DNA from: Kofleriaceae bacterium
GTDB taxonomy: Bacteria; Myxococcota_A; Polyangia; Haliangiales; Haliangiaceae
Length of the DNA: 64,000 bases
Direction: 5' to 3'
NCBI GenBank assembly: GCA_018057825.1
Contig: JAGPCY010000013.1
Span: 62,001-126,000, forward strand
Under the pieces are notes generated by a model that saw only the letters and a program-made list of their open reading frames with translations, ran no database searches and was not told where the DNA came from. Within the stretch, counting starts at the first letter, position 1. Each line of letters opens with the position of its first letter. Both the position numbers and the translations under genes were made by a program. Below are positions 9,731-51,371 of this stretch, in pieces.

Positions 9731-11904
9731 ATGGGAGAGCCCGCCCCGGCGTTGGACCGGGTCCGCAAGGTCACGGTCGGCCAGTGGTTGATCGTGCTGG
9801 TGGCCGTGCTGTTCGTGGGGCCGCTGTTCATCTCGAACCTGTGGGGCTACCTGAAGACGCGGCGGGCGTTGACGGCGACGGCCGAGCGCAACCTGCGCGA
9901 CGTGGCGGCGGTGGAGGCGGCGACCACCGATGACTTCGTGCGCCAGGCGGCGGAGCTGGTGCCGGCCCTGGTCAGCGGCGCGCCGGGGATGGTCGAGCTG
10001 ATCGGGGCGGCGGCCGGACCCGACGCGGGGGCGGCGCGCACCCGGCTCCACGAGCAGCTCCGCGTCGGGGTGGCCGGGGTGCCGGAGCTCGACGAGCTGC
10101 AGGTGGTCGGCGCCGGCGGCGAGGTGCTGGCGTCGTCGCGCGGCGCGGTGACGGGGCCCGATCTGGCGGCGGCGCTGTGCCTGGGGCGCGGTCGTACGCA
10201 GCCGGCGGTGGTCGGGTTCGAGCGCGGCGATGGTCCGCCCGAGCTCCTGGTCGCGACGCCGGTGGCCGGCGGCGCGGTGTTCTGCGCGCGCTTTCGGTTC
10301 GCGGTGTACGAGCGGCTCCTGGCCACGCTCAGCCGCGGCCGCGCGGTCGCGGTCCGCTATCTCCTCGACGAGGACCGCCGGGTGATCGCGGCCGCGCCGG
10401 CCGGCGTGGCGGTGGCGACCGGGGAGCGGCTGGCCTGGTTGCCGCGACCCGCGGCGGCCACGGCGTGGTCGGCGCGCGGCCGCGGTCCTGACGGCGCGGC
10501 GCTGTCGATCGCGTACAGCCCGGTGCCGCGGGTCGGCTGGGCCATCGTGGTCGCGATCCCGGTCGACGCCGCGCTGGCCGACCTCGAGGCCCTCAAGCGC
10601 CAGGCCCTCGTCGGCTTCGCGACCTTGGTCCTGGTCGCGGCGCTGGCGATCTTCCTGACCTGGCGGACTCTGGTCGGCCCGATGCGCGCAGTGTCTGCGG
10701 CGGCCGAGCGGATCGCCGACGGTGGCGCGGCGGGTGCGACGGTGGCGCCCTCGGGGCCGCGCGAGCTGATCGAGCTGGCCCACGCCTTCAATCGCATGAG
10801 CCTGGCGCTGCGCGAGTCCCACGACACGATGGCCGATCGCATCGCGGCCCGGACCCGCGAGCTGCGCGATAGCGAGGAGTTCCTCGAGCTGCTCCTCAAC
10901 TCGATCGATCAGCGCGTGGTCGTGACCGATCGCGACTACCGCATCGTCAAGGCCAACAACGCCGCCGAGCGCATGCACGGTGACGAGCTGGTCGGCGCGG
11001 TCTGCTACCAGCGCTTCGAGGGGCGGACCAGCCCATGCGAGGACTGCCCGGCCGCGCACACCTTCGCGACCGGGGCGCCGGCCACCGCCGAGCGCTCGCA
11101 GCACACCGTCAACGGCCAGGAGCCGCTGTCGATCGAGACCTACCCGGTGCGCAGCGACGGCGGCGCGGTCGACTCGGTGATCGCGATCAGCCGCGTGACC
11201 AGCCGCGAGAAGCAGCTCCAGGCTCACCTGGCGTTCCAGGAGAAGATGGCGGCGCTCGGTCAGCTCGCCGCCGGCGTCGCCCACGAGCTCGGCAACCCGC
11301 TGGCGTCGATCGACGCCCAGCTCCAGCGCGCCGAGCGCGATCCCGCCGGAGCTGCGACCGCGGTGCCGATCGTCCGCAAGGAGGTCGGGCGCATGGGGCG
11401 GATGTTGCGCGAGCTGGTCGATCTGGCCCGGCGCAAGCGCGACAAGGTCGGGCTGGCCGCGCCCAACCAGATCGTCGACGACGTGGTCCGCCTCATCGAG
11501 CACGATCCGCGGGCGCGCAACGTGGAGCTCGCGCGCGACCTGGCGCCGGCGCTGCCCGGGGTGCGGCTGGTCGAGGATCATCTGGTCCAGGTGCTCTTGA
11601 ACCTCGGCCTCAACGCCCTCGACGCCTTGGGCGGGGCCGGCACGATCACCTTCGCCACCCGGGTCGCTGGCGATCGGGTCGAGGTCCGGGTCAGCGACAC
11701 CGGCCCCGGGGTCGCCCGCGAGGCCTTGGCCCGGCTGTTCGAGCCGTTTCACACCACCAAGCCGCCGGGCCGCGGCACCGGCCTCGGCCTGTTCGTGTCC
11801 AAGCGCATCATCGACGAGCTGGGCGGCGAGCTCGAGCTCGAGGCCACCGGGCCGACCGGCACCACCTTCATCATCAAGCTGCCGGCGGTGCCGGTGGAGG
11901 ATCC

Positions 11905-11908
<4 letters not shown>
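9731..11908 (+). CDS. Transmembrane sensor histidine kinase (Cache-HAMP-PAS-HisKA-HATPase)
   Basis: 725 aa from the ATG at 9731, which starts just before the first membrane segment; an earlier ATG at 9558 would add a repeat-coded Arg-Ser tail and is rejected. Order: TM1 (about 15-37), a ~260-aa periplasmic sensor of the double-Cache kind, TM2 (about 297-317), HAMP, PAS (about 380-480), HisKA with GVAHELGNPLASI (phospho-His near 518), HATPase with DTGPGVA and GTGLGLFVSKRII. The PAS carries C...FEGR.SPCEDCP; such Cys sets can bind metal or sense redox. It is coupled to the next gene (ATGA) and forms a two-component system of the NtrB/NtrC type. The cytochrome locus nearby has sigma-54-type promoters, making it the likely target. 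Confidence 0.93.
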
Positions 11909-13251
<1,343 letters not shown>

Positions 13252-13607: not shown

Positions 13608-14252
13608 TCAGCGGCCGAAGCCGCGGACGACCTCGCGCATGGCGGCGAGCAGCTCGGGCTTGCCCGACAGGTCGCCGTGGGGCGGCATGAGCGGGCTCTT
13701 GCCGACCGCGGGACCGCCCTGGAGGATCGCCTTCTCGATGTGGAGATCGGTGACCGTGCGCTGCCACGACCGATCGGTGAAGTTGCGCGGCTTGGGCGTG
13801 AGCGCGACGCCGGTGGGGCCATCGCCCTTGCCGGAGGCGCCGTGGCAGGGCACGCAGCGCCCGGCGTAGAACTTCTTGGCGTCGGGCAAGAGCGGATTGG
13901 CCGCAGGCTTTGCCGGCTTGTCGGCAGGCGATGCGGCCGGCTTGGTCGCGGCGACGTGGTCCGCGTGCTCATCGGCTGGCCGGGTCGCGGGCTTAGCGTG
14001 CCGATGGGGCCCGGGCGCAGGACCTGCTGCGCGCGACGCATCGTTTGCGTCGGCGCTCGCGATCGCGCCTTCGCCGACCACCGAGGTCCAGGTCTCGTCG
14101 GGACTCGCGGCCGCGACCGCGATCGTGCCGTCGTCGGGCGCGGCGGTCGGCGCGGCGCTGGCCGCGGTGGTCGGCGACCACGGCTTGCAGATCGGTTGAC
14201 GCGCACACGCGCCGACGAGCAGCGCGAACGACAGGGTGAGGATGCGGTTCAT
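13608..14252 (-). CDS. Monoheme c-type cytochrome lipoprotein
   Basis: 214 aa. The signal peptide ends in a lipobox-like LLVGAC (Cys16), so the protein is probably membrane-tethered. A Pro/Ala/His-rich linker of ~110 residues follows, then a small cytochrome c domain with CVPCH at 133-137 and a likely axial Met in SPLMPPHGDLS. The domain resembles that of the divergent gene at 14366 (both have GDGPxxxxLxPKPRxFxD and SPLMP), so the two are paralogs. The Lys/Ala/Pro linker would let the heme reach across the periplasm. The gene diverges from the electron-transfer operon, and a sigma-54-type promoter (14269-14284) lies 16 bp upstream of its ATG. Confidence 0.88.
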   Translation of the reverse strand: MNRILTLSFALLVGACARQPICKPWSPTTAASAAPTAAPDDGTIAVAAASPDETWTSVVGEGAIASADANDASRAAGPAPGPHRHAKPATRPADEHADHVAATKPAASPADKPAKPAANPLLPDAKKFYAGRCVPCHGASGKGDGPTGVALTPKPRNFTDRSWQRTVTDLHIEKAILQGGPAVGKSPLMPPHGDLSGKPELLAAMREVVRGFGR

Positions 14253-14365: not shown

Positions 14366-14776
14366 ATGTCGCACGTCTCGTTCGCTCGCACGCTCACCGT
14401 CGCCGCTCTCGGCGTCGGCCTCGCTCTCGGCTCCCTGGCGCTGCGCGCGCCGCGCGCCACCGCCGAGACTCGCGCGCCCAGCCCGGCGCCGATCGCGCTC
14501 GCCGACAGCGGCGCCGAGCTGTTCACGACCAACTGCGCCACCTGCCACGGCGCCAAGGGCGACGGCGACGGCCCGGCCTCGCCCGGCTTGAACCCCAAGC
14601 CGCGCAAGTTCTCCGACAAGGCGATCATGAGCAAGCTGACCGACGCCAAGCTGACCGCGGTGATCAAGGGTGGCGGTGCGGCCAACGGCCTGAGCCCGCT
14701 GATGCCGGCCTTCGGTCATCTGACGGAGGCCCAGGTGAAGTCGCTGGTCACGCACATCCGCAGCCTCGCCAAGTAG
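14366..14776 (+). CDS. Periplasmic monoheme cytochrome c
   Basis: 136 aa, start set by GAGGAGAA eight bases before the ATG at 14366. A cleavable signal peptide (residues 1-33, ending ATAETRA) precedes a class I-like cytochrome c domain: heme motif CATCH at 57-61, axial Met in SPLMPAFGHLT, and a C-terminal helix LTEAQVKSLVTHIRSL. It is a soluble electron carrier and the first gene of an eight-gene, same-strand run ending at 24043, 20 bp ahead of the pentaheme gene. Close similarity to the divergent lipoprotein cytochrome suggests the two exchange roles or electrons. Confidence 0.93.
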   Translation: MSHVSFARTLTVAALGVGLALGSLALRAPRATAETRAPSPAPIALADSGAELFTTNCATCHGAKGDGDGPASPGLNPKPRKFSDKAIMSKLTDAKLTAVIKGGGAANGLSPLMPAFGHLTEAQVKSLVTHIRSLAK

Positions 14777-14796: not shown

Positions 14797-17700
14797 GTGT
14801 CCATCGCCGCTCGCTTGCTGTCTCGCCTCGCGCTCGTGGTCGTCGCCGGCCTCGGCGCTGGGCTGTCCGGGCTCACCGGACTCTCGGGTTGTACCTGTGA
14901 GTCCAGTCGCGAGGCCTGCACCCGGGACGGCGAGTGCGGCGACGGCGAGGTCTGCTACGGCGATGATCGGTGCGTGCCGCGCGAGGTCGCGCAGCGGGTC
15001 GGCGCGGTGGTCGGCGAGGAGTGCGCGGTGGTCGGCGGGGTCGAGGTCGGGTGCGAGGCCGACGAGTGGTGTCGGATGGGCTTCTGCCGCGGCGCCGACG
15101 ACGTCGACGGGGGGCACGGCCACGAGGTCGACGGCGGGATCGACGGGGCGATGGTCGGCTGCTCGACGGGCACCGCGGCCGACATGGCGCCGCTGTTCGG
15201 TGGCGCGGCCGAGGCCAGCGCCGACGGCGCGGACGCCGTGGTGGTGTCGTGGATCGCGGCCGCCGATGAGACCCTGCCGGCCGATCTCCGCTACCACGTG
15301 TACGTCGCGACCACCGCCGGGGCGCAGGACCTCACGGCGCCGACCACCACCGTGGTCGGCCAGACCACCGCGCGCCTGACCGGGCTCACCGCCGGCACGA
15401 CCTACCACGTCGTGGTCCGCGCCGAGGACGCCGCCGGCCAGATCGACTGCAACACCACCGAGCGCTCGGCGACCCCGCGGGCAGCCGGCGCGTGCGTGTC
15501 GTACACCGCCGACGTCAAGCCGATCCTCGACGGTCGGTGCCTCGGCTGCCACAGCGGCTCGGCGCCGCCAGCCGGGCTGCGGCTCGACAGTCACGCCAAC
15601 GTCCTGGCCGGCGGCATCACCGGCACCGAGGTGGTCGCGTGTCAGCCGACGGCCAGCCTGATCTATCTGAAGGTGTCGTCGGACACGCCGCCGGTCGGGG
15701 TGCGCATGCCGCAGGGCGGGCCGTACCTGAGCGCGGCGCAGATCCAGACCATCCACGACTGGATCGCGGGCGGCGCGCCCCTCGACTGTCCGACCGATCC
15801 AGGCGCCTGCAGCGACGCCACCGCGCCGACCTTCGCCGGGTTGACCAGCGCGACCTTGACCAACGACAGCACGGCGCGGCTGTGCTGGGCCGCCGGCGCC
15901 GATGACGTGACCCCCGCCGGCCAGCTCTTGTACGACGTCTACCAGGCGACCGCGCCCGGCGGTCAGGTGTTCACGTCGCCGCCCGAGACCACGACCGCGC
16001 CCGGCGCGACCTGCGTCGACGTCGCTGGGCTGACGCCCGCCCAGCAATACTGCTGGGTGACCCGCGCGCGCGATGGCGCGGGCAATCGCGACGGCAACAC
16101 CGTCGAGCGCTGCCTCACCACGCCGACCGCGAGCTGCATCGACTACGCGACCGTCGTCCAGCCGGTGTTCAACGCCGAGTGCGTGCACTGCCACGCCGGG
16201 GCCGCGGCGCCGCGCGGGCTGCGGCTCGACAGCTACGCCGGCGTGATCGCCGGCGGCCAGACCGGCAACACCGTGGTGTCGTGTCAGCCGTCGTCGAGCT
16301 TGCTGTATCAGAAGGTGTCGATGGCGACGCCGCCGGTCGGGGTTCGGATGCCAGCGGACGGGCCGCCGTACCTGACCGCGGCGCAGCAGAGCGCGATCCA
16401 GCAGTGGATCAGCGAGGGCGCGCGCAGCTCGTGTGGCGCTCCCGATCCGTGCAGCGACACCACCCCGCCGAGCTTCGCCGGCGCCACCACCGCGACCGCG
16501 ATCAACGCCACCACGATCGAGGTGTGCTGGGCGCCGGGCAGCGACAACCTGACTCCGGCCGCGGGGCTCATCTACGACGCCTACACCGCCTCTGCGCCAG
16601 GGGGCCAGGCCCTGACCGGCGCGCCGACCAAGTCGAGCGCGGCCGGCGCCACCTGCGTCCGCATCGACGCGCTCAGTCCTTCGAGCCAGCAGTGCGTCGT
16701 GGTCCGGGCCCGCGACGGCGCCGGCAACCGCGACAGCAACCGGGTCGAGCGCTGCGTCACCACGCCGGCCGTGCCGCCGGGGTGCGTCGACTACGCGACG
16801 ATGATCCAGCCGCTGTTCGATCGCAACTGCACGCGGTGCCACGCTGGCGATCGTCCGCCGCAGTGGCTGCGGCTCGACAGCTACGATCACGCGCTGGCCG
16901 GCAGCGCCAAGCGCAACGCGGTCGCCGCGTGCAACGCCGGCGCGAGCCTGATCGTGAACAAGATCGGCGCGACGCCGACCGCCGGACGGCGCATGCCCTA
17001 CGACGGCCCGCCGTACCTGACCAGCGCGCAGCTCGCGATGGTCAGTCAGTGGATCAACCAGGGCGCGCAGCGGACCTGCGGTGAGCCCGCGGCCTGCGGC
17101 GACACCACCGCGCCGAGCTTCATCGGTGCGGCGTCGGCGAGCGCGGTCGACTCGACCACGGTCCGGGTGTGCTGGCCCCAGGCCACCGACGCCGTGACCG
17201 CGGCGGCGTCCTTGCGCTACGACGTCTACCAGAGCGCGACCGCGGGTGGCGAGAACTACAGCCTGCCGCCCGCCGATAGCGTGGTCGGTCAGCTCTGCAC
17301 CGACGTCCGGGTCGGCCCGGCCTCGACCACCTGCTTCGTCGTCCGCGCCCGCGACCTGGCCGGCAACCGCAGCGTCAACACTGTCGAGCGCTGCGCGACC
17401 ACCGCGGCCGCGACCTGCGCGGTCGAGTACGACGCGCTGATCCAGCCGATCCTGACCGCTCGCTGCACCCACTGCCACCAGGGCGAGGACGGGCCGCGGT
17501 TCCTCGATCTGCGCACCTATGGCGGGGCCTTGGCCGGCGGCGCGATCCGCGACGCGGTCGACGCCTGCGACTGGGCCGGCAGCCTGCTCAACACCAAGAC
17601 CGCGGGCGCGGCGTGTGGCGCGCGCATGCCGGCCGACGGGCCACCGTGGCTCGCGGCGTCCGAGCGATCGCTCTTGAAGGCCTGGATCGACAGCGGCGCG

Positions 17701-18351
17701 CGGCGCACCTGCGCCGACCCGGCGGTGTGCGGCGACACCACCGCGCCGAGCTTCGCCGGGGCGACCACCGCGACCGCGACCTCGGCCACGACGATCGAGG
17801 TGTGCTGGAGCCCGGCGAGCGACGCCGGGAGCGCCGCCGACAGCGTGGTCTACGAGGTCTACGATGGCGCCACCGCGGCCGGCATCGCCTTCAACCGCGC
17901 AGCGCCCTACGCGGTCGCCGGTGGCGCCACCTGCCTCGCGGTCACCGTGCCCACCGGCCAGCAGACCTGCCTGGCGGTGCGGGCCCGCGACCTGGCCGGC
18001 AACCGCGATGGCAACACCGTGGCGCGGTGCGCGACGCCGGCTGGCGCGTGCTTCGCGTACGACGACGTGATCCAGCCGCTGTTCGATGCGCGGTGCGTCC
18101 ACTGTCACAGCGGCAGCAACCCGCCGCGCGGCATCCGCTGGGACAGCTACGCCAACGCGGTCGCCAACGACGGCGAGGTCCGGCCGTGCGACGCCGGCAG
18201 CAAGCTGCTCGACGTGGTCGACGCTTGCGACATGCCCGCCGATACCACCAGCGGCGCGTGCCGCGCGTGCCTGACCAGCTCTCAGAACCGCCTGTTGCGG
18301 CAATGGGTGCTGGGCGGCGCCGACGCGGCCTGCCCGTGGGGAGGATGCTGA
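14797..18351 (+). CDS. Lipoprotein of five alternating fibronectin-III-like and single-heme cytochrome domains
   Basis: 1184 aa; GTG start at 14797 preceded by CCGGAGG. Lipobox LSGC (Cys32) is followed by a Cys-rich segment (about 33-115) and an Asp/Gly spacer. Five ~212-aa modules follow. Each starts with a fibronectin-III-like sandwich (D.TAPSFAGAT.A....TT..VCW.P..D, ending V.RARD.AGNRD.NTVERC) and ends with a PSCyt1-like heme domain (IQPLFD..C..CH....PP..LRLDSY, an RMP axial Met, then a WI..GA helix). Heme motifs: CLGCH ~248, CVHCH ~462, CTRCH ~678, CTHCH ~890, CVHCH ~1100. Heme 5 has CDMPAD in place of RMP. The even spacing implies a rigid string of hemes outside the inner membrane, most likely at the cell surface. 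An electron-relay role is inferred from hemes and operon context. Confidence 0.88.
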   Translation: MSIAARLLSRLALVVVAGLGAGLSGLTGLSGCTCESSREACTRDGECGDGEVCYGDDRCVPREVAQRVGAVVGEECAVVGGVEVGCEADEWCRMGFCRGADDVDGGHGHEVDGGIDGAMVGCSTGTAADMAPLFGGAAEASADGADAVVVSWIAAADETLPADLRYHVYVATTAGAQDLTAPTTTVVGQTTARLTGLTAGTTYHVVVRAEDAAGQIDCNTTERSATPRAAGACVSYTADVKPILDGRCLGCHSGSAPPAGLRLDSHANVLAGGITGTEVVACQPTASLIYLKVSSDTPPVGVRMPQGGPYLSAAQIQTIHDWIAGGAPLDCPTDPGACSDATAPTFAGLTSATLTNDSTARLCWAAGADDVTPAGQLLYDVYQATAPGGQVFTSPPETTTAPGATCVDVAGLTPAQQYCWVTRARDGAGNRDGNTVERCLTTPTASCIDYATVVQPVFNAECVHCHAGAAAPRGLRLDSYAGVIAGGQTGNTVVSCQPSSSLLYQKVSMATPPVGVRMPADGPPYLTAAQQSAIQQWISEGARSSCGAPDPCSDTTPPSFAGATTATAINATTIEVCWAPGSDNLTPAAGLIYDAYTASAPGGQALTGAPTKSSAAGATCVRIDALSPSSQQCVVVRARDGAGNRDSNRVERCVTTPAVPPGCVDYATMIQPLFDRNCTRCHAGDRPPQWLRLDSYDHALAGSAKRNAVAACNAGASLIVNKIGATPTAGRRMPYDGPPYLTSAQLAMVSQWINQGAQRTCGEPAACGDTTAPSFIGAASASAVDSTTVRVCWPQATDAVTAAASLRYDVYQSATAGGENYSLPPADSVVGQLCTDVRVGPASTTCFVVRARDLAGNRSVNTVERCATTAAATCAVEYDALIQPILTARCTHCHQGEDGPRFLDLRTYGGALAGGAIRDAVDACDWAGSLLNTKTAGAACGARMPADGPPWLAASERSLLKAWIDSGARRTCADPAVCGDTTAPSFAGATTATATSATTIEVCWSPASDAGSAADSVVYEVYDGATAAGIAFNRAAPYAVAGGATCLAVTVPTGQQTCLAVRARDLAGNRDGNTVARCATPAGACFAYDDVIQPLFDARCVHCHSGSNPPRGIRWDSYANAVANDGEVRPCDAGSKLLDVVDACDMPADTTSGACRACLTSSQNRLLRQWVLGGADAACPWGGC

Positions 18352-18809
18352 TGCGCACCGGGTTCACCACTGTCACGACGATCGCCCTCGGGTTCGCGCT
18401 GTCGGTCGGCTGCGTCGACTTCGGCTTTCGCGTCCCGCCGCCCGAGGTCGAGGTCGACGCCACGCCGGTCGACGCCGATGGCGACGGCGCGACCGCCTGC
18501 GTCGAGGGGGCGACCACCCCGACCAGCGATGGGCCGCAGATCGCGTTCACCACGCTCAACGTCGATCGGCCGATCGTCAACGTGATGGTCGGCGACGTGG
18601 TGACCTGGACCAACGGCGACACGATGACCCACACGGTGACCGCCGGCGTGCCCGGCGCGCCGCAGCCTCCGCCGGCCGGCTTCGACAGCGGCGACCTCGC
18701 GCCCGGCGCGCGCTGGGCCTACCGGTTCTGCACGCCGCGCACGGCGATCTACTTCTGTCGGCCCCACGCCAACCAGATGAACGGCTATCGCGTGATCGTC
18801 GCGCCATGA
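18351..18809 (+). CDS. Cupredoxin-like copper lipoprotein
   Basis: 152 aa from the ATG at 18351, which overlaps the previous stop (TGATG) and has GGAGG six bases upstream. The signal peptide ends LSVGC (Cys21). After an Asp/Ala-rich linker comes a plastocyanin-like domain: VMVGDVVTWTNGDTMTHTVTAG supplies the first His ligand, and YFCRPHANQM supplies Cys, His and Met in the classic C-x2-H-x3-M order of a type 1 copper site. It is expected to carry single electrons in the periplasm or on the outer membrane, and sits between the pentaheme protein and the PEGA protein in one overlapping operon. Confidence 0.88.
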   Translation: MRTGFTTVTTIALGFALSVGCVDFGFRVPPPEVEVDATPVDADGDGATACVEGATTPTSDGPQIAFTTLNVDRPIVNVMVGDVVTWTNGDTMTHTVTAGVPGAPQPPPAGFDSGDLAPGARWAYRFCTPRTAIYFCRPHANQMNGYRVIVAP

Positions 18810-19492
18810 CCACCCCGACTGGCACCCCCGACCGCCGCGCCGCGGCGCCCACGCCGCCGCGTGGCGTCAGCCGCGCGCGGCCGCTGTCGTGGCGCAACCC
18901 ATGGACCCTGGTCCTGGGAGCGCTCGCCGGCTTTCAGGCCGGGGTGATCGTGACGCTCTTGTGGACCTCGGGTGGTGACGGCAGCGGCGAGTCGACCGCG
19001 ACCGCGCCCGCGCCGACCCCGCCATCGACGACGCTGGCGCCTTCGGTGGCCGCTGCGCCGCCGGCGGCTGGGCCGGCGCCGGCGGTCGCGCCGCTCCCCA
19101 CCGTCGAGCCGCCGCCCGCGGTCGAGCCGCCGCCCGCGGTCGAGCCGCCGCCCACGGTCGAGCCCCCCCCCAGCGGACGTCGCAAGCGCCCGCCGCGGAC
19201 CCCGCCCGGGGTCGCGGCGCCTGGCCCGGACGCCGGAGCGGCCCCGGCCGATCCGACCCCGACCGGCACCGGCGCGCTCGTCGAGGTCGACGTCCACTCC
19301 GAGCCCGAGGGCGCCACCGTGCGCATCGCTGGCGCGGTGTGGGGCGTGACGCCGTTGACCGTGTACCTCCCTGATACCGCCCCGGTGGTGATCCGCCTCG
19401 AGCTCGACGGCCACGCGCCGGCGAAGCTGACCTGGTCACCCGCTGGCCGCCGCGCCCTGCGCGCGGTGCTCACGCCCACGGAGAACCCATGA
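18806..19492 (+). CDS. PEGA-domain membrane protein
   Basis: 228 aa. A cytoplasmic N-terminus (~35 residues), one TM helix (about 36-56), a long Pro/Ala/Val linker with four tandem VEPPP repeats (19102-19163), and a C-terminal ~75-residue PEGA domain (VDVHSEPEGATVRIAGAVWG ... ELDGHAP). PEGA domains are small beta-sandwiches on the outer face of membranes, often in myxobacterial kinases or S-layer-like proteins. The start overlaps the cupredoxin stop (ATGA), and the end overlaps the heme-barrel start. A scaffold that positions redox partners across the periplasm is plausible, but only inferred from the operon. Confidence 0.85.
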   Translation: MTTPTGTPDRRAAAPTPPRGVSRARPLSWRNPWTLVLGALAGFQAGVIVTLLWTSGGDGSGESTATAPAPTPPSTTLAPSVAAAPPAAGPAPAVAPLPTVEPPPAVEPPPAVEPPPTVEPPPSGRRKRPPRTPPGVAAPGPDAGAAPADPTPTGTGALVEVDVHSEPEGATVRIAGAVWGVTPLTVYLPDTAPVVIRLELDGHAPAKLTWSPAGRRALRAVLTPTENP

Positions 19493-20769
19493 GAGCCACG
19501 CTCCTGTTCGCCGCCCTCGCGGTCGCCGCCGCCTGGTCGCCAGCCCACGCGATCCCGCGCTTCGCCGCGCGCAACGGCAACGAGTGCATTCAGTGCCACG
19601 TGAGCCCGAGCGGCGGTGGGGTCCGCAACGCCTACGGGCGCAACGTGTTCGAGCGCACCTGGCTGCCGCGGACGGGCCGCCTGACCGCCGACGACTACGT
19701 GGTCAAGCCGGCCGACGCCGATGGCGCCGATGGCGATGATGCGGCTGCGCCGCCGCCGCCGGAGCCGGTGGTGTTCGATCCCGAGATCAATCAGTGGATG
19801 GTGCTGGGCGGCGATCTGCGCGCTGCCTTCATCTACATCCGCCCCGATCGCGGCCGCACTCCCGACGCCGACCCTGACGTCGTCAGCTCGTTCTTCCTGA
19901 TGCAGGCCGACCTGTATCACGCGATGACGCTCAACGAGCACGTCACCACCGTGCTCGACGTCGGCGCGTACTCGGGCTTCGAGGCCTGGGCGTTGTTCCA
20001 TCGCAAGCCCGAACCGGCGCGCTACGACGTCCTCGTGAAGGTCGGGCGGTTCATGCCGGCGTTCGGGATCCGCGAGGTCGAGCACCAGCTCTTCACCCGC
20101 GAGGGGGTTGGGCTCGGTCAGACCGATCGCGACACCGGTATCGAGGTCACGGGCTACGCCGGGCCGATGACGGCGATGGTGTCGCTGCTCAACGGCACGC
20201 TCGGCGACACCGGGTTCGATAGTCACGGCAGCGAGCGCACCCGGTTCGAGAAGGCGGTGGTCGGTCGGCTGAGCGCGCGCGGTGACGCCGGCTGGGCCCG
20301 CGGTCAGCTCGGGCTGTCGGCGTACTGGAATGACAACGGCAACCAGGCCAACCCGCTTTTGGCCGGCAGCGTGGATCCGGCCGACGCCGCCGAGGTCGGC
20401 GCCGGCGTCGACGAGCTGCGCCTGGGCGGCTTCGTCACCGCGAACCTCGGCCGCTTCACCTACCTGGCCGATCTGGTCTGGGTCCGCGACCGCTTCGCCA
20501 GCGATCGGCTACCGAGCTTGTCCGGCTACACCAGCTACCAGGAGCTGTCGTTCCTGCCGACCCAGGGGCTCGATGTGATCGGGACCTTCGAGTTCGCCGA
20601 CCCCGATCTCGACCTGGTCGACAACACCACCATGCGCGCCGGCCTGGTGGTCGAGTTCTTCCCGTGGCCGTTCACCGAGCTGCGCGCGATGGTGCGGCGG
20701 ACCTGGAGCGACACCGCCGCCACCGGTGGCGCCTGGGACGCGGTGTTCTTCACCCACCTGTTCATGTAG
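19489..20769 (+). CDS. Outer-membrane beta-barrel with an N-terminal c-type heme site
   Basis: 426 aa. Signal peptide MRATLLFAALAVAAAWSPAHA, then a single heme motif CIQCH at residues 33-37 within NECIQCHVSPSGGGVRNAYG, then an acidic spacer. From about residue 100 come alternating beta-strands typical of a porin (for example VLVKVGRFMPAFGIREVEHQ, GQLGLSAYWNDNG, LRLGGFVTANLGRFTY, MRAGLVVEFFPWPFTELRAMVRRTW), ending in FTHLFM, close to an outer-membrane insertion signature. A heme next to the barrel mouth suits a porin-cytochrome conduit in which electrons cross the outer membrane. The ATG overlaps the PEGA stop. Heme-bearing barrels of this type occur in other proteobacteria and myxobacteria, but I cannot name the family. 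Confidence 0.8.
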   Translation: MRATLLFAALAVAAAWSPAHAIPRFAARNGNECIQCHVSPSGGGVRNAYGRNVFERTWLPRTGRLTADDYVVKPADADGADGDDAAAPPPPEPVVFDPEINQWMVLGGDLRAAFIYIRPDRGRTPDADPDVVSSFFLMQADLYHAMTLNEHVTTVLDVGAYSGFEAWALFHRKPEPARYDVLVKVGRFMPAFGIREVEHQLFTREGVGLGQTDRDTGIEVTGYAGPMTAMVSLLNGTLGDTGFDSHGSERTRFEKAVVGRLSARGDAGWARGQLGLSAYWNDNGNQANPLLAGSVDPADAAEVGAGVDELRLGGFVTANLGRFTYLADLVWVRDRFASDRLPSLSGYTSYQELSFLPTQGLDVIGTFEFADPDLDLVDNTTMRAGLVVEFFPWPFTELRAMVRRTWSDTAATGGAWDAVFFTHLFM

Positions 20770-20778
20770 GAGCCGATC

Positions 20779-22356
20779 GTGAACTCCCCGATGATCTCTC
20801 GCAGGCTTTCGGGTGCGCGCTGGCTCGTGGCCGCGACGCTCGTGGCCTCGGCCGTGGTGCTGGGCCAGGCGGTCGCCGACGACGCCGAACCGCCGGCCGC
20901 GCCGACGGCGCCCGCGGTCGGCCGGATCGCTGGTCAGGTCCGGTTCGCCGGCACGGCGCCGCCGCCGGCCGAGCTCCACGCCCACCACGATCCCGAGGTG
21001 TGCGCCAAGGGCGGGCCGCTCATCGACGAGCGCCTGCTCGTCGATGGCGCGGGTGGCCTGGCCAACGTGGTGGTGGTGTTGCAGGGCGTGCCGGCCGCGC
21101 CGCCGCCGAGCCCGACCACCGCGACCCTCGACCAGAAGGCGTGCCGGTTCGTGCCGCACGTCCAGGCGGTGCCGCTCGGGACCACGCTCGCGATCACCTC
21201 GAGCGACCCGGTCCTGCACAACGTCCACGCCTTCCTGGGCAAGCGCACCGCGTTCAACCTGGCGATCCCGGTGCCGGGCAAGACCGTGCCGCGCAAGCTC
21301 GAGCAGTCGGGCATCCTGCGCATCCGCTGCGACTCTGGCCACGACTGGATGAGCGCCTACGTCGCGGTGGTGCCGCACCGCTTCTTCGCGGTGTCGGCGC
21401 CCGACGGTCGGTTCGCCCTCGACGACGTGCCGCCCGGCGAGTACCGGTTGCGGGCCTGGCACGAGTCGCTCGGCGCGGTCGAGCAGCGGGTGACGGTGGC
21501 GGCCGGGGTCGACGCGGCGGTCAGCCTGACCTTCAAGGAGCTCGAGGACGACGCCAAGCCGGCGCCGACCGATGCCCTGCGCGACGCGCTGGCCGCGACC
21601 AAGACCGCGGTCGAGGAGCTCGAGGCGCGGCAGCGCGCCGACGAGCGCGGCCGCCTGGCCCGCGAGGGCGCGCCGCTGTTTCGAAAGTTCTGCGCCACCT
21701 GCCACGGCCAGCGCGGCGATGGCCGGGGCCCGTCGGCGCAGTTCACCACCACGCCGCCGCGCGACCTGACCCGCGGCACGTTCAAGTTCCGCATGACGCC
21801 GGTGGGCGCGCCGCCGACCCAGGCCGACCTGATCCGCACGATCAACGCCGGCGTCCGCGGCACCCACATGCCGGCGTGGAAGGGCAAGCTGACCCCGACC
21901 CAGATCGAGACCCTGGCCCGCTACGTCACGACGCTGTCGGATCCGTTCTGGACGGGCGCGCCGCCGCCCGAGCTCCTGGTGATCCCGCCGGAGCCGGCCT
22001 ACGATCTAGCGTCGGTCGAGCGCGGCAAGGCGCTGTACGCCAAGATGCAGTGCGCGACGTGCCACGGTGAGCGCGGCGCGGGCGACGGTCCGGCCGCCGC
22101 GGCGCTCAAGGATGACTGGGGCCACAAGATCGCGCCGGCCGACTTCACGCGCGGGCGGATCAAGGGCGGTTGTTGTGGCGCCGCGATCTACCGGGCGATC
22201 TCGACCGGCCTGGGCGGCACGCCCATGCCGTCGTTCGGCGCCGCGATGTCCCCGGCCGAGCGCTGGGATCTGACGCACTACGTGTTGTCTCTGGGCCACG
22301 AGCGACCGGCGGTCGACTATCTCTTGCGCGACCCGGTCGGGAGGATCTCGCCATGA
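20779..22356 (+). CDS. Fusion of cupredoxin-like, carboxypeptidase-regulatory and two cytochrome c domains
   Basis: 525 aa. Signal peptide (about 1-34, ending GQAVADD). Residues ~45-200 form a cupredoxin-like fold with VLHNVHAF and IRCDSGHDWMSAYV, supplying His, Cys, His and Met copper ligands. Residues ~205-255 are a carboxypeptidase-regulatory strand set (APDGRFALDDVPPGEYRLRAWHE). A short coiled segment (265-295) leads to two cytochrome c domains with CATCH at 305-309 (axial Met in GTHMPAWKGKL) and CATCH at 425-429 (TPMPSFGAAM). One polypeptide would therefore hold one copper and two hemes in the periplasm. It lies 9 bp after the heme-barrel gene and is coupled to the next gene. Nitrite or nitric oxide reductase signatures are absent. 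Confidence 0.87.
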   Translation: MNSPMISRRLSGARWLVAATLVASAVVLGQAVADDAEPPAAPTAPAVGRIAGQVRFAGTAPPPAELHAHHDPEVCAKGGPLIDERLLVDGAGGLANVVVVLQGVPAAPPPSPTTATLDQKACRFVPHVQAVPLGTTLAITSSDPVLHNVHAFLGKRTAFNLAIPVPGKTVPRKLEQSGILRIRCDSGHDWMSAYVAVVPHRFFAVSAPDGRFALDDVPPGEYRLRAWHESLGAVEQRVTVAAGVDAAVSLTFKELEDDAKPAPTDALRDALAATKTAVEELEARQRADERGRLAREGAPLFRKFCATCHGQRGDGRGPSAQFTTTPPRDLTRGTFKFRMTPVGAPPTQADLIRTINAGVRGTHMPAWKGKLTPTQIETLARYVTTLSDPFWTGAPPPELLVIPPEPAYDLASVERGKALYAKMQCATCHGERGAGDGPAAAALKDDWGHKIAPADFTRGRIKGGCCGAAIYRAISTGLGGTPMPSFGAAMSPAERWDLTHYVLSLGHERPAVDYLLRDPVGRISP

Positions 22357-22787
22357 CTCGCTATCGCCTGTCCTGCATCGTCGCCCTCGCCGGCGCCTGC
22401 GCCGCGGGCGGGGGCCCGCCCGGCGAAGCGCCCGGCACGATCACCGGCGTGGTCGACTACGCCCGGCCCGCGGCCGGCACCCTCCGGGTCGCGGTGTTCG
22501 CCTCGTTCCCGCCGGTCGGCGAGCCGATCGCCGAGGTCGCGATCGACGAGCCGCGCTTCCCGCAGGCCTATCAGGTCCGCGGCGTGCCGCCGGGGCGCTA
22601 CTTCGTCCTGGCCATGGTCGACGGCGACCCCGACGACGGCGATCGCTATCGGCCGCGGACCGATCCCGGCGGCGCGTTCGGTACCTACCTGAGTCCGGCG
22701 GCGGTGACGATCACGACCCTCGGTCCGGCGTCGGCGGTCGACATCACCCTCGAGCCGCCGATGGCGGGGTCGCCGTGGGATCGGTAG
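22353..22787 (+). CDS. Small lipoprotein with a carboxypeptidase-regulatory-like domain
   Basis: 144 aa. Signal peptide with LAGAC, then a single beta-sandwich: GTITGVVDYARPAAGTLRVAVF, YQVRGVPPGRYFVLAMVDGDPDD, ending in strands with AVTITTLGPASAVDITLEPP. This resembles the carboxypeptidase-regulatory or transthyretin-like folds used as structural modules in secreted proteins. No metal or heme site is visible. The ATG overlaps the preceding stop (ATGA), so it is translated with the redox proteins; a structural or adaptor role is inferred. Confidence 0.8.
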   Translation: MTRYRLSCIVALAGACAAGGGPPGEAPGTITGVVDYARPAAGTLRVAVFASFPPVGEPIAEVAIDEPRFPQAYQVRGVPPGRYFVLAMVDGDPDDGDRYRPRTDPGGAFGTYLSPAAVTITTLGPASAVDITLEPPMAGSPWDR

Positions 22788-24043
22788 GCCGGCCACCGCC
22801 GCCGCCGCCCGGCCGGCCGCGCACCGAGCCGGGCGCGACCTCGGCCACCGTCGACGCGGTCACGACCCCGGGGCGCGGGGTGCCGATGGCGGCGGGCGCG
22901 ATCGGTCCGTACGAGGTGATCGCCGAGATCGCGCGCGGTGGGATGGGCGTGGTCTACCTGTGCCGGCGCGCGGGCGAGGCCGGGTTCGAGCGGCTGTTCG
23001 CGGTCAAGGAGATGCACCCGCACCTGGCCACCGATCACGACTTCGTGACCATGCTGCTCGACGAGGCGCGCCTGGCCGCGCGCATCCATCACCACAACGT
23101 CGCCAGCGTCGTCGAGCTGGGAAAGTCCGAGCGCGGCTACTACCTGGTCATGCCTTACGTCGAGGGGTGTTCGCTCGATCAGCTCCTGGCGCGCAACCCG
23201 ACCTATCGCCCGCCCAGCTTGCTGGTGCCGATCTTGATCGGCGCCCTCAATGGCCTGCACGCCGCCCACGCGCTCGAGGGCGACGACGGTCGCCCGGTTG
23301 GCCTGGTCCACCGCGACGTGTCACCGCACAACGTGCTGATCGGCATCGACGGCGACGCCCGCATCACCGACTTCGGCGTGGCCAAGGCCAAGGCTCGCAT
23401 CACGTCGACCCAGCCAGGGATGATCAAGGGCAAGCTGTGCTACTGCGCCCCCGAGCTCCTGGGCGCCGGCGGTCGCGTCGACCACCGCGCCGATCAGTTC
23501 GCGGCCGGCGCGGTCTTGTGGAGCGCGCTGACCGGACGGGCGCTGTTTCGCGGCGACACCGACGCCGAGACCGTGCAGCGCGTCTTGCACCTGGAGGTGC
23601 CGCCGCCGAGCGCGATCGGCCTGGCTCCGACCGCGGTGTTCGATCAGGTGATCCTGCGGTCCTTGGCCCGTGACCCAGACAAGCGGTTCCCCAGCGCCGG
23701 GGCGATGGCCGAGGCCCTGCGGGCGGCGGCGCTGACGGCCGGCATGCTCGGGGCGCCGACCCGGATCGCGCGCTGGGTGCGCGACACGTTCGCCGACGAT
23801 CTGGCCGAGCGGCATCGGCTGATCCGCGCGGCCCGGCCGTCGAGCTCCGGCGCGGTACCGGTCCTGCCGCAGTTCGTGCCCGACGTGGTTCACCCGCCGC
23901 AGCCGACCCCGCCGCCGATCTCGCTCGACGAGGTCGACCCGCCGCCGGCGACCGGCGGCGACCTCGCGCGGTTCGTGGCGGTGGTGGCGGCGGCGTTCGG
24001 CCTCGGGGTCTACGTGACCCTGTACGCGCGCGGCGGGTGGTGA
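22775..24043 (+). CDS. Hanks-type Ser/Thr protein kinase with C-terminal membrane anchor
   Basis: 422 aa from the GTG at 22775, inside the previous gene (13-bp overlap); an ATG at 22886 would give 385 aa and start just before the kinase domain. Kinase domain about 44-310: glycine loop ARGGMGVVYL, catalytic Lys in FAVKEMHPHL, HRDVSPHN catalytic loop, DFGVAK, and the P+1 region KGKLCYCAPE. All active-site residues are present. A Pro-rich stretch precedes one C-terminal TM helix (FVAVVAAAFGLGVYVTLYA) with only a few residues outside, so any sensing outside the cell must come from partners. It is the last member of the electron-transfer operon, suggesting that phosphorylation is tied to that system. 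Confidence 0.92.
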   Translation: MGSVGRPPPPPPGRPRTEPGATSATVDAVTTPGRGVPMAAGAIGPYEVIAEIARGGMGVVYLCRRAGEAGFERLFAVKEMHPHLATDHDFVTMLLDEARLAARIHHHNVASVVELGKSERGYYLVMPYVEGCSLDQLLARNPTYRPPSLLVPILIGALNGLHAAHALEGDDGRPVGLVHRDVSPHNVLIGIDGDARITDFGVAKAKARITSTQPGMIKGKLCYCAPELLGAGGRVDHRADQFAAGAVLWSALTGRALFRGDTDAETVQRVLHLEVPPPSAIGLAPTAVFDQVILRSLARDPDKRFPSAGAMAEALRAAALTAGMLGAPTRIARWVRDTFADDLAERHRLIRAARPSSSGAVPVLPQFVPDVVHPPQPTPPPISLDEVDPPPATGGDLARFVAVVAAAFGLGVYVTLYARGGW

Positions 24044-26816: not shown

Positions 26817-28937
26817 GTGGCCGTCGGCCGCGGTACCTACGAGCTGGTGCGTCACCTCGCGACCGGCGGGATGGCCGAGCTGTACCTGGCGCGGGCGCCG
26901 GGCGCGGCCGCCGGGGAACCCTGGGTCGTGCTCAAGCGGATCTTGCCCGACCACGCGCGCAACCCGGCGTTCGTCGCCATGTTCCTCGACGAGGCGCGCC
27001 TCGCAGCGCGCCTGCACCACCCCAACATCGCCGGGGTGATCGACGTCGGTCGCACCGGCGACACCTACTTCTACGCGCTCGAGTACGTCCACGGGCAGAA
27101 CCTGCGCGACGTGCTCCAGCGCTCGGGCCAGACCCGGCGGCGGATCCCGACCGGCGTCGCGGTGGCGATCCTGCTCGGCGCGGCCGCCGGGCTCCACGCC
27201 GCCCACGAGGCCCGCGGTCGCGATGGCTCGCCGCTCGAGATCGTGCATCGCGACGTCTCGCCGTCGAACCTGATGGTCGCCTACGACGGCACGATCAAGG
27301 TGGTCGACTTCGGCGTGGCCAAGGCCGCCGATCGCATGACCGAGACGCGCTCGGGCACGGTCAAGGGCAAGATCGCGTATCTGTCGCCCGAGCAGTGCTT
27401 GCTGCGCGCCCTCGATCGCCGCAGCGACGTCTTCGCGCTCGGGGTGTGCGCGTGGGAGCTGGTGACCCAGCGCCGGCTGTTCAAGCGCGACAGCGACTAC
27501 GAGAGCATGCGGGCGATCATCGAGGAGCCGCTGCCGCGGCCGTCGCAGACGCCCGGGGTCGAGCCGGCCCTCGATCCGATCATCCTGCGGGCCCTGGCGC
27601 GGGAGCCCGACAGCCGCTACCCGACGGCGGCCGCCTTCGCCGATGAGCTGCGCGCGGTCGCGGCGACGCTGGGGCTCGACACCAGCCCGGACCGGGTCGC
27701 CGACTACGTCCGCGGGTTGTTCGGCTCGCCGCCGCTGCCGTGGTTCGAGGGCGACGTCGACGTGACCGACACCCACGTCGTCTCGATCGGCGAGCTGTCG
27801 GTCGACGACCTGCTGGTGGAGCCCGATGATGGCGACCTGGGCGCGGTGCCGGTCGCGCTGCCGATGAGCGTGCAGCCGACGGCGCGGCTGCGTCCCCTCC
27901 CCTCGCCGGCGCGGCCGCCCGAGGTGCTCGCGTCCCCGGCCGTCCTGGCGGAGCGCGCGGTGGTCGCGACCTTCACCACCGAGGCGGCAGCGCCGACGCT
28001 CCGGCCGAGCGCGCCCGCGTTGGGACCACCTCGACCCGAGGCCGCGCCGGCGGCGCCGGTGGTCGCTGCCGCGATCGGGCCGCGGGCGACCCTGACCGGT
28101 CCGGCCCCGGCGCCGGTGGTGCCGCCGTCGCTCGCGCCGTCGCCTCCGCCATCGGTGGCGGCGCCGAACGCGCCGTTGTCGCTCGCGCTCTTTCCATCGA
28201 GCGCCCCGTCGGTGGGGCCGCTCGTGCCGCCGTCGCGCGACGCGACCGCGAGCGTGTCCGCAGCGTGGGCCATCCCGACGCCGCCGGTGGCTCGGCGCCG
28301 CGCCGGACCGTGGATCGCGGTGGTCGCCGGGGCGTCGATCGCCGCGATCGCGATCGCGGTCGCGGTCTCGGGTGGGGCGGACGGTGGTCCGGTCGAGGGC
28401 CCCGCGCTGGCGCCGACCGCGGCGGTCGCGCCCGCTCCTGCCACGCCCGCGGTCGGGTCCGCGGCGGTCGCGCCGGCCCTGGCCCCGACGGTCACCGACG
28501 CTGGGCCGGCGATCGCGGCCGCCCCGGTCGCGCCGACGCCAGCCGAGCCCGACCCGGGCGCGCCGACGCCAGCCGAGCCCGACCCGGCCACGCCGACGCC
28601 GGCCGAGCCCGGGCCGGTCGCGCCGACACCGGTCGAGCCCGGGGTGCTGGCGACGCGGCCACGCACGCCGCTCGACGAGGTCCGGGCCGCCGCCGGTCGC
28701 AGCGCGCGCGAGGCCGCCGAGGCCTGTCGTCGCCTCTTGGCCAGCGGCGCCCGCGACGGCGAGCTGTGGTCCTTGTGCGGGCGGATGTTCTGCGCGACCC
28801 GGCAGGCAGCGCTCGCGCGCAGCGCCATGCGCCGGGTCTCGACGCGCCGCGCCGCCGAGATCGAGCGGCAGTGCCTGGCGTCGGGGGCGTTCTCGTCCGC
28901 CACCGAATGCGACGACGATCCGACCGCGTGTCGGTAG
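26817..28937 (+). CDS. Hanks-type Ser/Thr protein kinase with extracytoplasmic C-terminal tail
   Basis: 706 aa, GTG start two bases after the preceding stop. Kinase domain about 6-275: ATGGMAELYLA, Lys in VVLKRILPDH, HRDVSPSN, DFGVAKAADR, KGKIAYLSPEQ. All catalytic residues are intact. A ~200-aa Pro/Ala-rich juxtamembrane region leads to one TM helix (WIAVVAGASIAAIAIAVAVSG, about 500-520). Outside lie a low-complexity spacer with tandem PTPAEPDP-like repeats (28537-28640) and a small domain with six cysteines (ACRRLLAS ... LCGRMFCA ... QCLASGAF ... ECDDDPTAC). The exposed Cys domain may sense envelope state. Confidence 0.92.
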   Translation: MAVGRGTYELVRHLATGGMAELYLARAPGAAAGEPWVVLKRILPDHARNPAFVAMFLDEARLAARLHHPNIAGVIDVGRTGDTYFYALEYVHGQNLRDVLQRSGQTRRRIPTGVAVAILLGAAAGLHAAHEARGRDGSPLEIVHRDVSPSNLMVAYDGTIKVVDFGVAKAADRMTETRSGTVKGKIAYLSPEQCLLRALDRRSDVFALGVCAWELVTQRRLFKRDSDYESMRAIIEEPLPRPSQTPGVEPALDPIILRALAREPDSRYPTAAAFADELRAVAATLGLDTSPDRVADYVRGLFGSPPLPWFEGDVDVTDTHVVSIGELSVDDLLVEPDDGDLGAVPVALPMSVQPTARLRPLPSPARPPEVLASPAVLAERAVVATFTTEAAAPTLRPSAPALGPPRPEAAPAAPVVAAAIGPRATLTGPAPAPVVPPSLAPSPPPSVAAPNAPLSLALFPSSAPSVGPLVPPSRDATASVSAAWAIPTPPVARRRAGPWIAVVAGASIAAIAIAVAVSGGADGGPVEGPALAPTAAVAPAPATPAVGSAAVAPALAPTVTDAGPAIAAAPVAPTPAEPDPGAPTPAEPDPATPTPAEPGPVAPTPVEPGVLATRPRTPLDEVRAAAGRSAREAAEACRRLLASGARDGELWSLCGRMFCATRQAALARSAMRRVSTRRAAEIERQCLASGAFSSATECDDDPTACR

Positions 28938-34373: not shown

Positions 34374-37300
34374 CTATTGGCCGGACATGTACGTCGCGAG
34401 CACGACCGTACCATCGGTGTTGACACGAACGATGGCCCGCATCGGCCTATCGCCGTAGGTGCGGGCAAAGATCACGCTGTAACTCCCATCCTGGTTGTGG
34501 GCGATCGTCGACGTTCCGCCGCTGATCGTCTCCGACGCTGAGCGCAGATAGCGCGAGACGTCGTTGGAACCAAACCCGGGATCGCGATGGATCGACGGCA
34601 GCTCGCGGTAGTGCTTGTTGGCGTGGTAGGTGGCCGACGACTCGCTGCCGAACTGTAGGTTCGGCATGGCCTGCACCTGACTCGCCAAGCGGGCGGGATC
34701 GACCGCGGCCCCTAGCGGCGTCGCGCCGGCACGACCGGCGAGGTCTGTGGCGAGGGTCGTCGCCCGTGTGGTGACAGCAGCGTCGCTGACCCCCGCGTAG
34801 CTGGATCCCGGGGAGCCCTCAAGGACGGCAACATTGAACGCGTTGCCGAAGCCCTGGACCGGTCGTCCGAGGATCTCTGTGCTCGCCTGTCGCTCGGCGG
34901 CCGCCCGGCTGAGCGGCGGAGTCCCGGTGGTCAACGCGGTAGTTCTCGCACGTATCTGGGCGTCCAGATCGGCGCGCCGCCGCATGTACTCCGAGACGAA
35001 CATCTCGAACTGGTTGACGAACTCGGCAGCGTTGGCGGGGTTGCGGTCTAGCGCATAGCCAGCGGCGCGCTCGCGGAGGGCCGTCGCCACGCCGCCCGGA
35101 AGCTGCGCGTTCACCAGATCGGTCAATCGGGCCAGGCTGCGCGCGTCGGTCCCTAGTGACGCTTCCAGGCGCGTAGCGGTCGCTTGCCGGGCTGGCGTGT
35201 TGCACACCGACGGGTTGTTGACGTTGGTCGTGAACCAGGTTGCGTTCCCGTCGAGCTGGAACTGGAAGCGGAAGCGATAGCTTCCCGAGCGCGTGAACGG
35301 CGTGAGACGGGCCTGATCGACCGGTGACGCGCCGGTGGCCTCCAGGATCGTCCTGACGTCGGCGGCGTCGACCTCGGCCAGCCGGCTCGGGTGGATCTCG
35401 AGCTGGCCGTTGATCCGGAGCTGGCCGCCGGCGCCGGCCTCGATGCGGTGGGGCAGGAAGTCGAGGCCGACCTTCTTCAAGAGCACCGACGCGCCGGCCG
35501 GGCTCAGATCGCACACCCGAGCGACGCCGTCGAGCTGGGCGGCGCTGGCGCGCTCGAGGGCGCGCAGGGCGTCGTCGTCGAGGCCGGCCAGGCGGGTCCA
35601 GAAGGTCTCGGGGCGATCGGGCCACTTGGCGCGCAGGGCGGCGCGGGGATCGCGGGCGAAGTGCGGGTCGGGGCGCCCGTGGGCCCGGGCCAGCGCGCTC
35701 TCGATGGTCTGGCGGTGGGCCGGCGCGATCCCGGCCAGGCCGTCCATCTCGCGCATCGCCTCGGGCATGCGGTTGGCGGCGATGTGCTCGTCGATCGTGT
35801 GCAGCCGGCGCAGGGTGGCGTCGTCGAGGCCGTGGAGGGCGGCGCCCGACAGGCCCGACTCGCGGAGCGCGGTGGCGATCCGCCCGGCCGGCTCGGGGGC
35901 CAGGCCGAGATCGCCGGTCATGCGCGCGCGCACCAGCTCGGCCTCGAGCTCGACGATCGAGTGGCCGGTGGTGCGCTGGAGCGCGCCCAGGAGGTGGGCG
36001 CGGCGCTGGATCAGGCGGGTCAGCGCCGCCGGATCGTCGCGCATCATCGCGACCAGGCGCTCGAGCTGAGGCGCGTCGGCGCCGCGCAACGCGCGCAGGG
36101 TGTCGGCGTCGAAGTGCGACAAGGTCATGCGGGTCGAGTTGGTGAGCTGGCCCTCGACGTCGGGGCCGACGCCGGTCCGCACCTTCTCGGCCATCTGGGT
36201 CATCTGCCGCACCGACAAGACCAGGAGGCCGCCGGTCAGGATCAGGTTGGCGACCACCGAGGCGATCGCCCGGGTCTTGTCCTCGCCCGACAGGCCCGAG
36301 TCCATGATCTGCGAGATCTGGCGGGCGCCGTCGACCGACACCAGGACGCCGGAGATGACGTCGGTGGTGAAGGCGCTCCACAGGAGGAACTGGCCCTGGC
36401 GGGTCGCGGTCAGGACCACCGGGCCCTCGCGCATCGCCATGAACGCGGCCCGGGTGTTGAGGAAGCTGGCCGCGATCGACACCACGTCGATCGAGATCGC
36501 CAGGGTGTCGAGCCGCGAGTTCTGCAGGTGATCGATGAGCGACAGCGTGCCGGCCGCGGCGCCGGCGACGCCCGAGCCGATGATCAGCGCGGTCGCGACC
36601 ATCGAGCCGCCGCCGGTGAACGGGATCGCGGCGACGCCCAGGACCAGGGCCAGGCCGCCGAGCAGACCGGCGGCGGTGCCGAGCGACGAGTTGCCGGTGG
36701 TGTGGATCGTGCGGGTCGAGGCCGCGACGCCGGGCACCACGCCACCTGCGACGCGCAGCGCGACGTCGCCGGTCGGCAGGTGGTTGCGATCGCCGAACTG
36801 GCCGAGGACATCGTCGACCGAGCCGCCCTCGAAGCGCAGGGTCTCGTGGCTGGGGTCGAGGCCGGCGGTGGCGTGGACCAGGAGGTAGCGCGAGGTGTCG
36901 GCGGCCTTGCGCCCGAGGTACAGGTGGAGCCGGGTCTCGGCGCCGGTGGTCGCGTTGACGTGGATCGCGGTCACCGGGGCGGCCAGCGGCCGGGTCCGGC
37001 CGTCGCTGGTCGTGGTCTCGAACTCGGCGGTCGCGGCGTCGACCACGGCGAGCTCATCGCGCAGGCGGCGCGCGGCGTCGATGGTCTGCTGCGACTGCAC
37101 CGACTGCGTGTAGTTGTGCTCGGCGACCTTCTGGCCGCCGCGCAGGACGTGACACGTGATCGCGTAGGTGTTGGCGTAGCGGGCGCGGAACTGCGCGACG
37201 TCGGTCGTGCCGAGATCGAACATCTCGACGCCGTTGATCGTCGTGCGGGCGTGACCGTCGAGCTGGGCCGGCATGCCGTCCCACGACAGCGGCGCCGCAT

Positions 37301-50369: not shown

Positions 50370-51363
<994 letters not shown>

Positions 51364-51371
<8 letters not shown>

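Follow-up and report, generated by a model that had tools for sequence, protein, structure and literature searches.

A five-module FN3/monoheme cytochrome lipoprotein as a candidate tethered-heme relay of a Cyc2-like barrel operon in Kofleriaceae (Myxococcota)

In 2024, PgcA of Geobacter was presented as the founding member of a tethered-heme protein class; in Geobacter sulfurreducens it has three monoheme domains joined by proline-threonine (PT) linkers, spans up to 180 Å, and transfers electrons by tethered diffusion (PMC5732950, PMC11520253), and its homologues are reported to contain 1 to 6 (PMC5732950) or 3–14 (PMC11520253) hemes. Packed-heme chains have edge distances of typically < 15 Å (PMC11520253). 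The rus operon of Acidithiobacillus is ordered cyc2-cyc1-cup-cox-rus (PMC10654088), and fibronectin type III (FN3) domains are known on extracellular electron transfer (EET) proteins, including oetF of syntrophic sulfate reducers (PMC10553843), the OmpB multicopper oxidase (PMC5566968), and Geobacter transcripts (PMC6199725). Here we analyzed a 64,000-nucleotide window of contig JAGPCY010000013.1 from a Kofleriaceae bacterium (GCA_018057825.1), a myxobacterium of the sludge or soil kind, in which one gene encodes a five-module FN3/monoheme cytochrome lipoprotein (hereafter the string; Table 1). On balance, and with a modest weight of probability in favor, we read the string as an outer-membrane-anchored, length-expanded tethered-heme relay belonging to an operon with a Cyc2-like barrel.

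The string is translated from a GTG start at 14797 to a stop at 18351 and begins with VSIAARLLSRLALVVVAGLGAGLSGLTGLSGC, a signal peptide with an LSGC lipobox. A sequence-only reading made earlier had described a 1184-residue lipoprotein with five near-evenly spaced CxxCH motifs and an RMP-type methionine for each (CDMP in the last), and this description is exact: the motifs lie at residues 248, 462, 678, 890, and 1100 (spacings of 214, 216, 212, and 210), and the distal methionine stands in a Met-Pro ~45–55 residues past each, as VRMP, VRMP, RRMP, ARMP, and CDMP in modules 1 to 5. We divided the protein into five modules of 207–215 residues, each comprising two halves, sandwich and cytochrome. 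Every pair of modules matched in an all-against-all phmmer comparison (E 1e-26 to 1e-72, Z = 10,000), so the five-fold repetition is certain and not a chance pattern, and both CxxCH and Met-Pro were unchanged in all 15 modules of an alignment of three orthologues. Modules 2–5 have extra cysteines in FN3 plus a cysteine at both module borders, and C159 and C209 in the cytochrome half do not vary; from this cysteine pattern we infer disulfides and an oxidizing compartment, and the conserved cysteines of the FN3 spacers probably staple the chain. The linkers between FN3 and cytochrome are ~10 residues long. The cysteine-rich head of the protein, which gave nothing above cut-off in a Pfam scan, is also present in one- and two-module relatives.

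The proposal that every heme motif sits in a PSCyt1-like domain preceded by an FN3-like sandwich was borne out by Pfam alone for part of the series. With modules scanned singly, Pfam PSCyt1 (PF07635, cut-off 22) accepted modules 1 (33.0) and 2 (33.5), modules 3 (19.8) and 4 (17.6) fell below the cut-off, and module 5 was unreported, and only module 1 passed Pfam fn3 (31.9 vs a cut-off of 25). The entire string scored 92.6 bits for PSCyt1 and 44.7 bits for fn3. Structure prediction, which the earlier reading had suggested, gave an AlphaFold2 model of modules 2–3 (input of eight two-module sequences; predicted local distance difference test, pLDDT, 75.9) that contained two beta-sandwiches with the FN3 fold (VIA Z ~11–12 to FN3 chains), each followed by a short-helix domain carrying CxxCH; the loop where heme would sit had poor model quality, and FN3 matches dominated the fold search meant for the cytochrome half. 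FN3 is thus assigned by Pfam in module 1, by model fold in modules 2–3, and by homology only in modules 4–5. The alternation of FN3 and monoheme domains is real and rare, and this architecture was found as a named family in none of the libraries searched (Pfam, NCBIfam, and PHROGs).

MtrC and OmcS likewise have c-type hemes proposed for EET, whereas the string has one CxxCH per 210–216 residues, in separate domains and with no stacked array. That the heme density is too low for a packed wire had been recognized from the sequence, and we agree: with one heme per ~212 residues and a whole FN3 between cytochromes, a packed-heme array within one extended chain is unlikely. The further suggestion of a new kind of wire found no support as regards continuous heme-heme conduction, and the idea of spaced monohemes is already contained in PgcA (PMC11520253, PMC5732950). 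For the string to be a true extracellular wire, side-by-side packing or folding would have to place the hemes of adjacent modules or molecules within tunnelling distance to make a continuous conductor. Such ordered lateral assembly would be suited by the regular 210–216-residue period and the short linkers, but an FN3 domain separates the cytochromes in each module, and the number of modules varies at the same locus among relatives (an FN3-less single heme, one, two, or five), where packing into a wire should call for an interface that stays the same; we consider this explanation quite improbable.

Like PgcA, the string is a secreted lipoprotein with several separate monoheme domains at nanometer spacing (two of the three in PgcA are His/Met), its heme number differs among homologues (1, 2, and 5 modules at one locus), and its terminal domain is unlike the rest; module 5 may, by analogy, be a specialized tip, as is domain III in PgcA. 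Unlike PgcA, with its disordered (PT)x repeats, the string has folded, cysteine-rich FN3 spacers, and it lacks flexible (PT)x or (PA)x linkers. PgcA was not among the matches of the module profile to solved structures, so we claim no sequence kinship between the two proteins. We rejected His/Met ligation as proof of a high potential, as the monoheme domains of PgcA (two of them His/Met) lie at ~-48 to -106 mV (PMC11520253).

The most informative neighbor of the string, which the sequence-only reading had passed over together with the one-to-five module series described below, is the barrel-like protein at 19489–20769. Past its signal, the mature protein starts with AIPRFAARNGNECIQCHVSPSGGGVRNAYGR, and it ends in HLFM (HLF[MF] as a motif), an aromatic C-terminus as in outer-membrane barrels. 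For comparison, a short consensus query retrieved six Cyc2-type proteins among plasmid records, and these were aligned into a profile, to which the heme segment of the barrel matched over 41 columns around the heme (hhalign probability 96%, E 4.3e-9). In the controls, the Cyc2 profile against the string modules gave 4.5% and the string against the barrel 0.7%; because modules that also bear CxxCH score only 4.5%, the match to Cyc2 exceeds a mere heme motif. The strict Cyc2 signature, AXPXFAR[Q/K][T/Y] plus PXL (PMC8406198), is not matched by the barrel, which reads AIPRFAARN and has no PXL, and we therefore call it Cyc2-like and not a Cyc2. Its N-terminal single-heme segment is shared with Cyc2, in which the cytochrome is fused to a 16-stranded outer-membrane porin, but the porin parts of the two fail to align, and tblastn found no relatives of the barrel in plasmid records.

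The copper proteins that had been noted beside the string proved real, with two conserved type-1-like ligand sets. In the cupredoxin, His96, Cys138, and His141 are kept among relatives, and Met145 in 6 of 7, the remaining relative having a Gln nearby. In the N-terminal part of the protein at 20791–22356, [LF]H[NT]VH and CDxGHxWM are kept in relatives and form the second set. In relatives, separate genes encode the copper part and the diheme part. With a heme-headed barrel, a cupredoxin, and a diheme cytochrome, the locus is like the Cyc2/rus system; unlike the rus operon, its conserved block is devoid of terminal oxidase genes, and the rus operons of PMC10654088 mention no FN3 string.

Full five-module orthologues (68–70% identity) occur in two other Kofleriaceae, G002 of the same genus and G010 of another genus; a contig search for orthologues named one, a Kofleriaceae metagenome-assembled genome that corresponds to the G010 contig. 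By gene calls, both keep an unbroken block in the order histidine kinase, NtrC-type regulator, divergent cytochrome lipoprotein, small cytochrome, string, cupredoxin lipoprotein, PEGA protein, heme barrel, copper-site/diheme protein, small lipoprotein, and Ser/Thr kinase. String and barrel co-occur in 3 of 30 Kofleriaceae genomes, and the remaining 27 have neither at comparable strength. Across samples of 290 genomes of the class and 379 of the phylum, repeated modules of the string family were found in four genomes only (G000, G002, G010, and G266), with no further multi-module strings in the phylum sample at E <= 1e-33; the rarity holds within Myxococcota.

In other families of the class, the position of the string gene is taken by a single heme with no FN3, by one module, or by two. 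In G031, a one-module protein precedes cupredoxin, barrel, and copper-site and diheme genes; in G174, a single module is accompanied by small cytochrome, cupredoxin, barrel, diheme protein, and small lipoprotein; G266 has two modules adjoining a cupredoxin, where the contig stops; both loci of G060 have an FN3-less one-heme lipoprotein immediately upstream of the barrel; and G034 and G279 have barrel and diheme parts and no recognized string. In a tree of modules, each position clusters with the same position of the orthologues, and modules 2–5 together with the second module of G266 form one clade, with several inner forks weakly supported. Module 1, with no extra cysteines in its FN3 and a place in the tree among one-module relatives, is the putative ancestral type. 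On the simplest history, a one-module ancestor probably gave rise to the string through duplication of modules, while the other parts of the locus stayed constant. The ratio of nonsynonymous to synonymous substitution rates was 0.26–0.63 in all modules (pairwise Nei–Gojobori, a rough estimate for DNA that is strongly GC-rich), and judged by it the modules are under purifying selection. Beside the two-module string of G266, locus L101 (G266:C761, 5271–7789) encodes a diheme cytochrome together with a membrane subunit that is bd-oxidase-like, and these may provide a connection to the quinone pool.

A different protein of a sister Kofleriaceae genome, in locus L146 (G018:C128:3500-13500), also combines a beta-sandwich with a PSCyt1-type monoheme domain. 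Its 1789-residue frame from base 2548 alternates Ig-like domains (Big_1-type, by eye) with PSCyt1, has CxxCH at residues 204, 406, and 1116 and a DUF1549-like C-terminal part, and is unrelated to the string, from which it differs in sandwich family and in its irregular spacing. Its presence points to two or more origins of sandwich-spaced monoheme strings within this group. In locus L150 (G014:C77), a 608-residue frame has two PSCyt1-like domains alternating with Ig-like domains. Loci L104, L106, L107, L108, L109, L110, and L112 encode lipoproteins in which three to five FN3 domains are combined with one C-terminal cytochrome, often CX4CH; such FN3(n)-CX4CH lipoproteins, with one terminal heme only, are frequent in a different large family of the class, in a similar gene neighborhood.

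In the relay that we propose, five monoheme His/Met cytochrome domains would be set on one lipoprotein with folded FN3 domains as spacers, and the string would form the part that varies and lies outermost in a conserved operon for outer-membrane electron transfer; the core of that operon would consist of the heme-headed Cyc2-like barrel, the blue-copper lipoprotein, and the copper-site/diheme cytochrome. The string would thereby extend the reach of this conduit and its count of redox contact sites. Electrons would pass between heme domains not by tunnelling along the extended chain but by contact of neighboring or hinged domains or of neighboring molecules, and the co-encoded cupredoxin and small cytochromes would also carry them. 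Folded spacers and short linkers would restrict motion and favor contact with neighboring strings, the cupredoxin, small cytochromes, or an external substrate. For the string itself, we infer heme loading, surface exposure, disulfides, and relay by collision. An adhesin-like surface protein, with cytochrome domains that serve binding, sensing, or redox buffering with no net export or import of electrons, would agree with the typical use of FN3 and Ig-like strings in adhesins and with the frequency in the class of FN3(n) proteins bearing one terminal cytochrome; we hold it to be very improbable, as both heme ligands are kept in 15 of 15 modules and other redox proteins constantly accompany the string in the operon.

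Several points weigh against the tethered-heme relay. The linkers of ~10 residues are modelled with pLDDT ~80, whereas those of PgcA are long, disordered PT repeats; the heme domains of the string may therefore be limited in how freely they diffuse. The structure model of the barrel reached a pLDDT of 29.5 only. RuBisCO is absent from all 16 genomes checked, so a rus-like reading is left with no support from Calvin-cycle autotrophy, and we dropped RuBisCO as an argument for lithoautotrophy. The chain could also hang in the periplasm: anchored in the outer membrane and directed inward, it would link inner-membrane carriers to the periplasmic heme of the barrel. A fully extended chain of up to ~35 nm (our estimate), a lipobox with no sign of surface export, a barrel heme segment that is N-terminal as in Cyc2, and the presumably periplasmic location of the soluble cytochromes and the diheme protein are all in keeping with such a periplasm-spanning relay, but one-module and FN3-less versions stand at the same place, so that a length matched to the periplasm is not conserved, and we rate this arrangement as credible but unlikely.

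As to direction, we lean weakly toward electron uptake by the surface relay over discharge, by analogy, since the gene set resembles cyc2/cyc1/rus. Heme-copper oxidases are present in all genomes tested, encoded outside the conserved block, and together with the absence of RuBisCO they agree with an auxiliary function in a heterotroph that respires.

FN3 domains in EET proteins and the tethered monoheme class are thus already known, and what is new here is the use of folded FN3 spacers in place of PT linkers. Neither oetF nor OmpB is reported to alternate one FN3 strictly with one monoheme domain or to be tandemly amplified, and no such alternation repeated five times was found in the full-text literature searched, with subscription papers mostly outside its scope; no such pathway was found described for Myxococcota in that literature. 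We put forward, tentatively and at somewhat less than even chance, that the string represents a second, independent tethered-heme class of Myxococcota, built with folded FN3 spacers by stepwise module duplication and acting as an adjustable extension, at the surface, of a heme-barrel conduit that is Cyc2-like and has copper shuttles. If so, nanometer spacing of single hemes on one surface protein arose repeatedly, with folded or with floppy spacers, and the natural series of 1, 2, and 5 modules in the same operon would make it possible to measure how chain length and spacer stiffness affect electron transfer over long range. The locus further draws attention to a Cyc2-like conduit of Myxococcota that has two copper sites and is unstudied.

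Table 1. Coordinates of the string, its modules, and the genes of the conserved block within the 64,000-nucleotide window
Feature	Position	Strand	Remarks
Sensor histidine kinase (HAMP, PAS, HisKA)	9731..11908	+	Upstream; kept in G010 and G002
Sigma-54 (NtrC-type) response regulator	11905..13251	+	78–79% identical in G010 and G002
Divergent lipoprotein monoheme cytochrome c	13608..14252	-	Cytochrom_C 28.2 bits; kept in G010 and G002
Small secreted monoheme cytochrome c	14366..14776	+	Cytochrom_C 56.4 bits; adjoins string in relatives too
String, five-module FN3/monoheme cytochrome lipoprotein	14797..18351	+	1184 aa; orthologues 68–70% identical
Lipoprotein signal and Cys-rich N-terminal head	14797..15171	+	LSGC aa 29–32; Cys aa 32 = 14890–14892
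Module 1, FN3 and PSCyt1	15172..15807	+	CxxCH 15538–15552; fn3 31.9 bits, PSCyt1 33.0 bits
Module 2	15808..16449	+	CxxCH 16180–16194; PSCyt1 33.5 bits; FN3 fold in model
Module 3	16450..17094	+	CxxCH 16828–16842; homologous to module 2; FN3 fold in model
Module 4	17095..17727	+	CxxCH 17464–17478; homologous to modules 2 and 3
Module 5, terminal, most divergent	17728..18348	+	CxxCH 18094–18108; CDMP; extra Cys pair (CRAC); from alignment and tree
Lipoprotein cupredoxin	18345..18809	+	Copper-bind 22.6 bits; predicted type-1 Cu ligands H96, C138, H141, M145
PEGA-domain protein, one transmembrane-like segment	18806..19492	+	Kept in G010 and G002
Outer-membrane barrel-like protein, Cyc2-like N-terminal heme segment AIPRFAARNGNECIQCH	19489..20769	+	Profile match to Cyc2
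Second predicted type-1 Cu domain, CarboxypepD-like part, and two cytochrome c domains, fused	20791..22356	+	LHNVH...CDSGHxWM
Small lipoprotein-like protein	22353..22787	+	Kept across locus relatives
Serine/threonine protein kinase	22886..24043	+	End of conserved block

Elsewhere in the window, serine/threonine kinase genes lie at 26817–28937, 50370–51371, and 51364–54510, in addition to the one at 22886–24043 in the conserved block. A 1608-residue protein on the - strand (34374–39200) has an extracellular contractile injection system (eCIS) core domain at 148 bits, which suggests a link to such a system.

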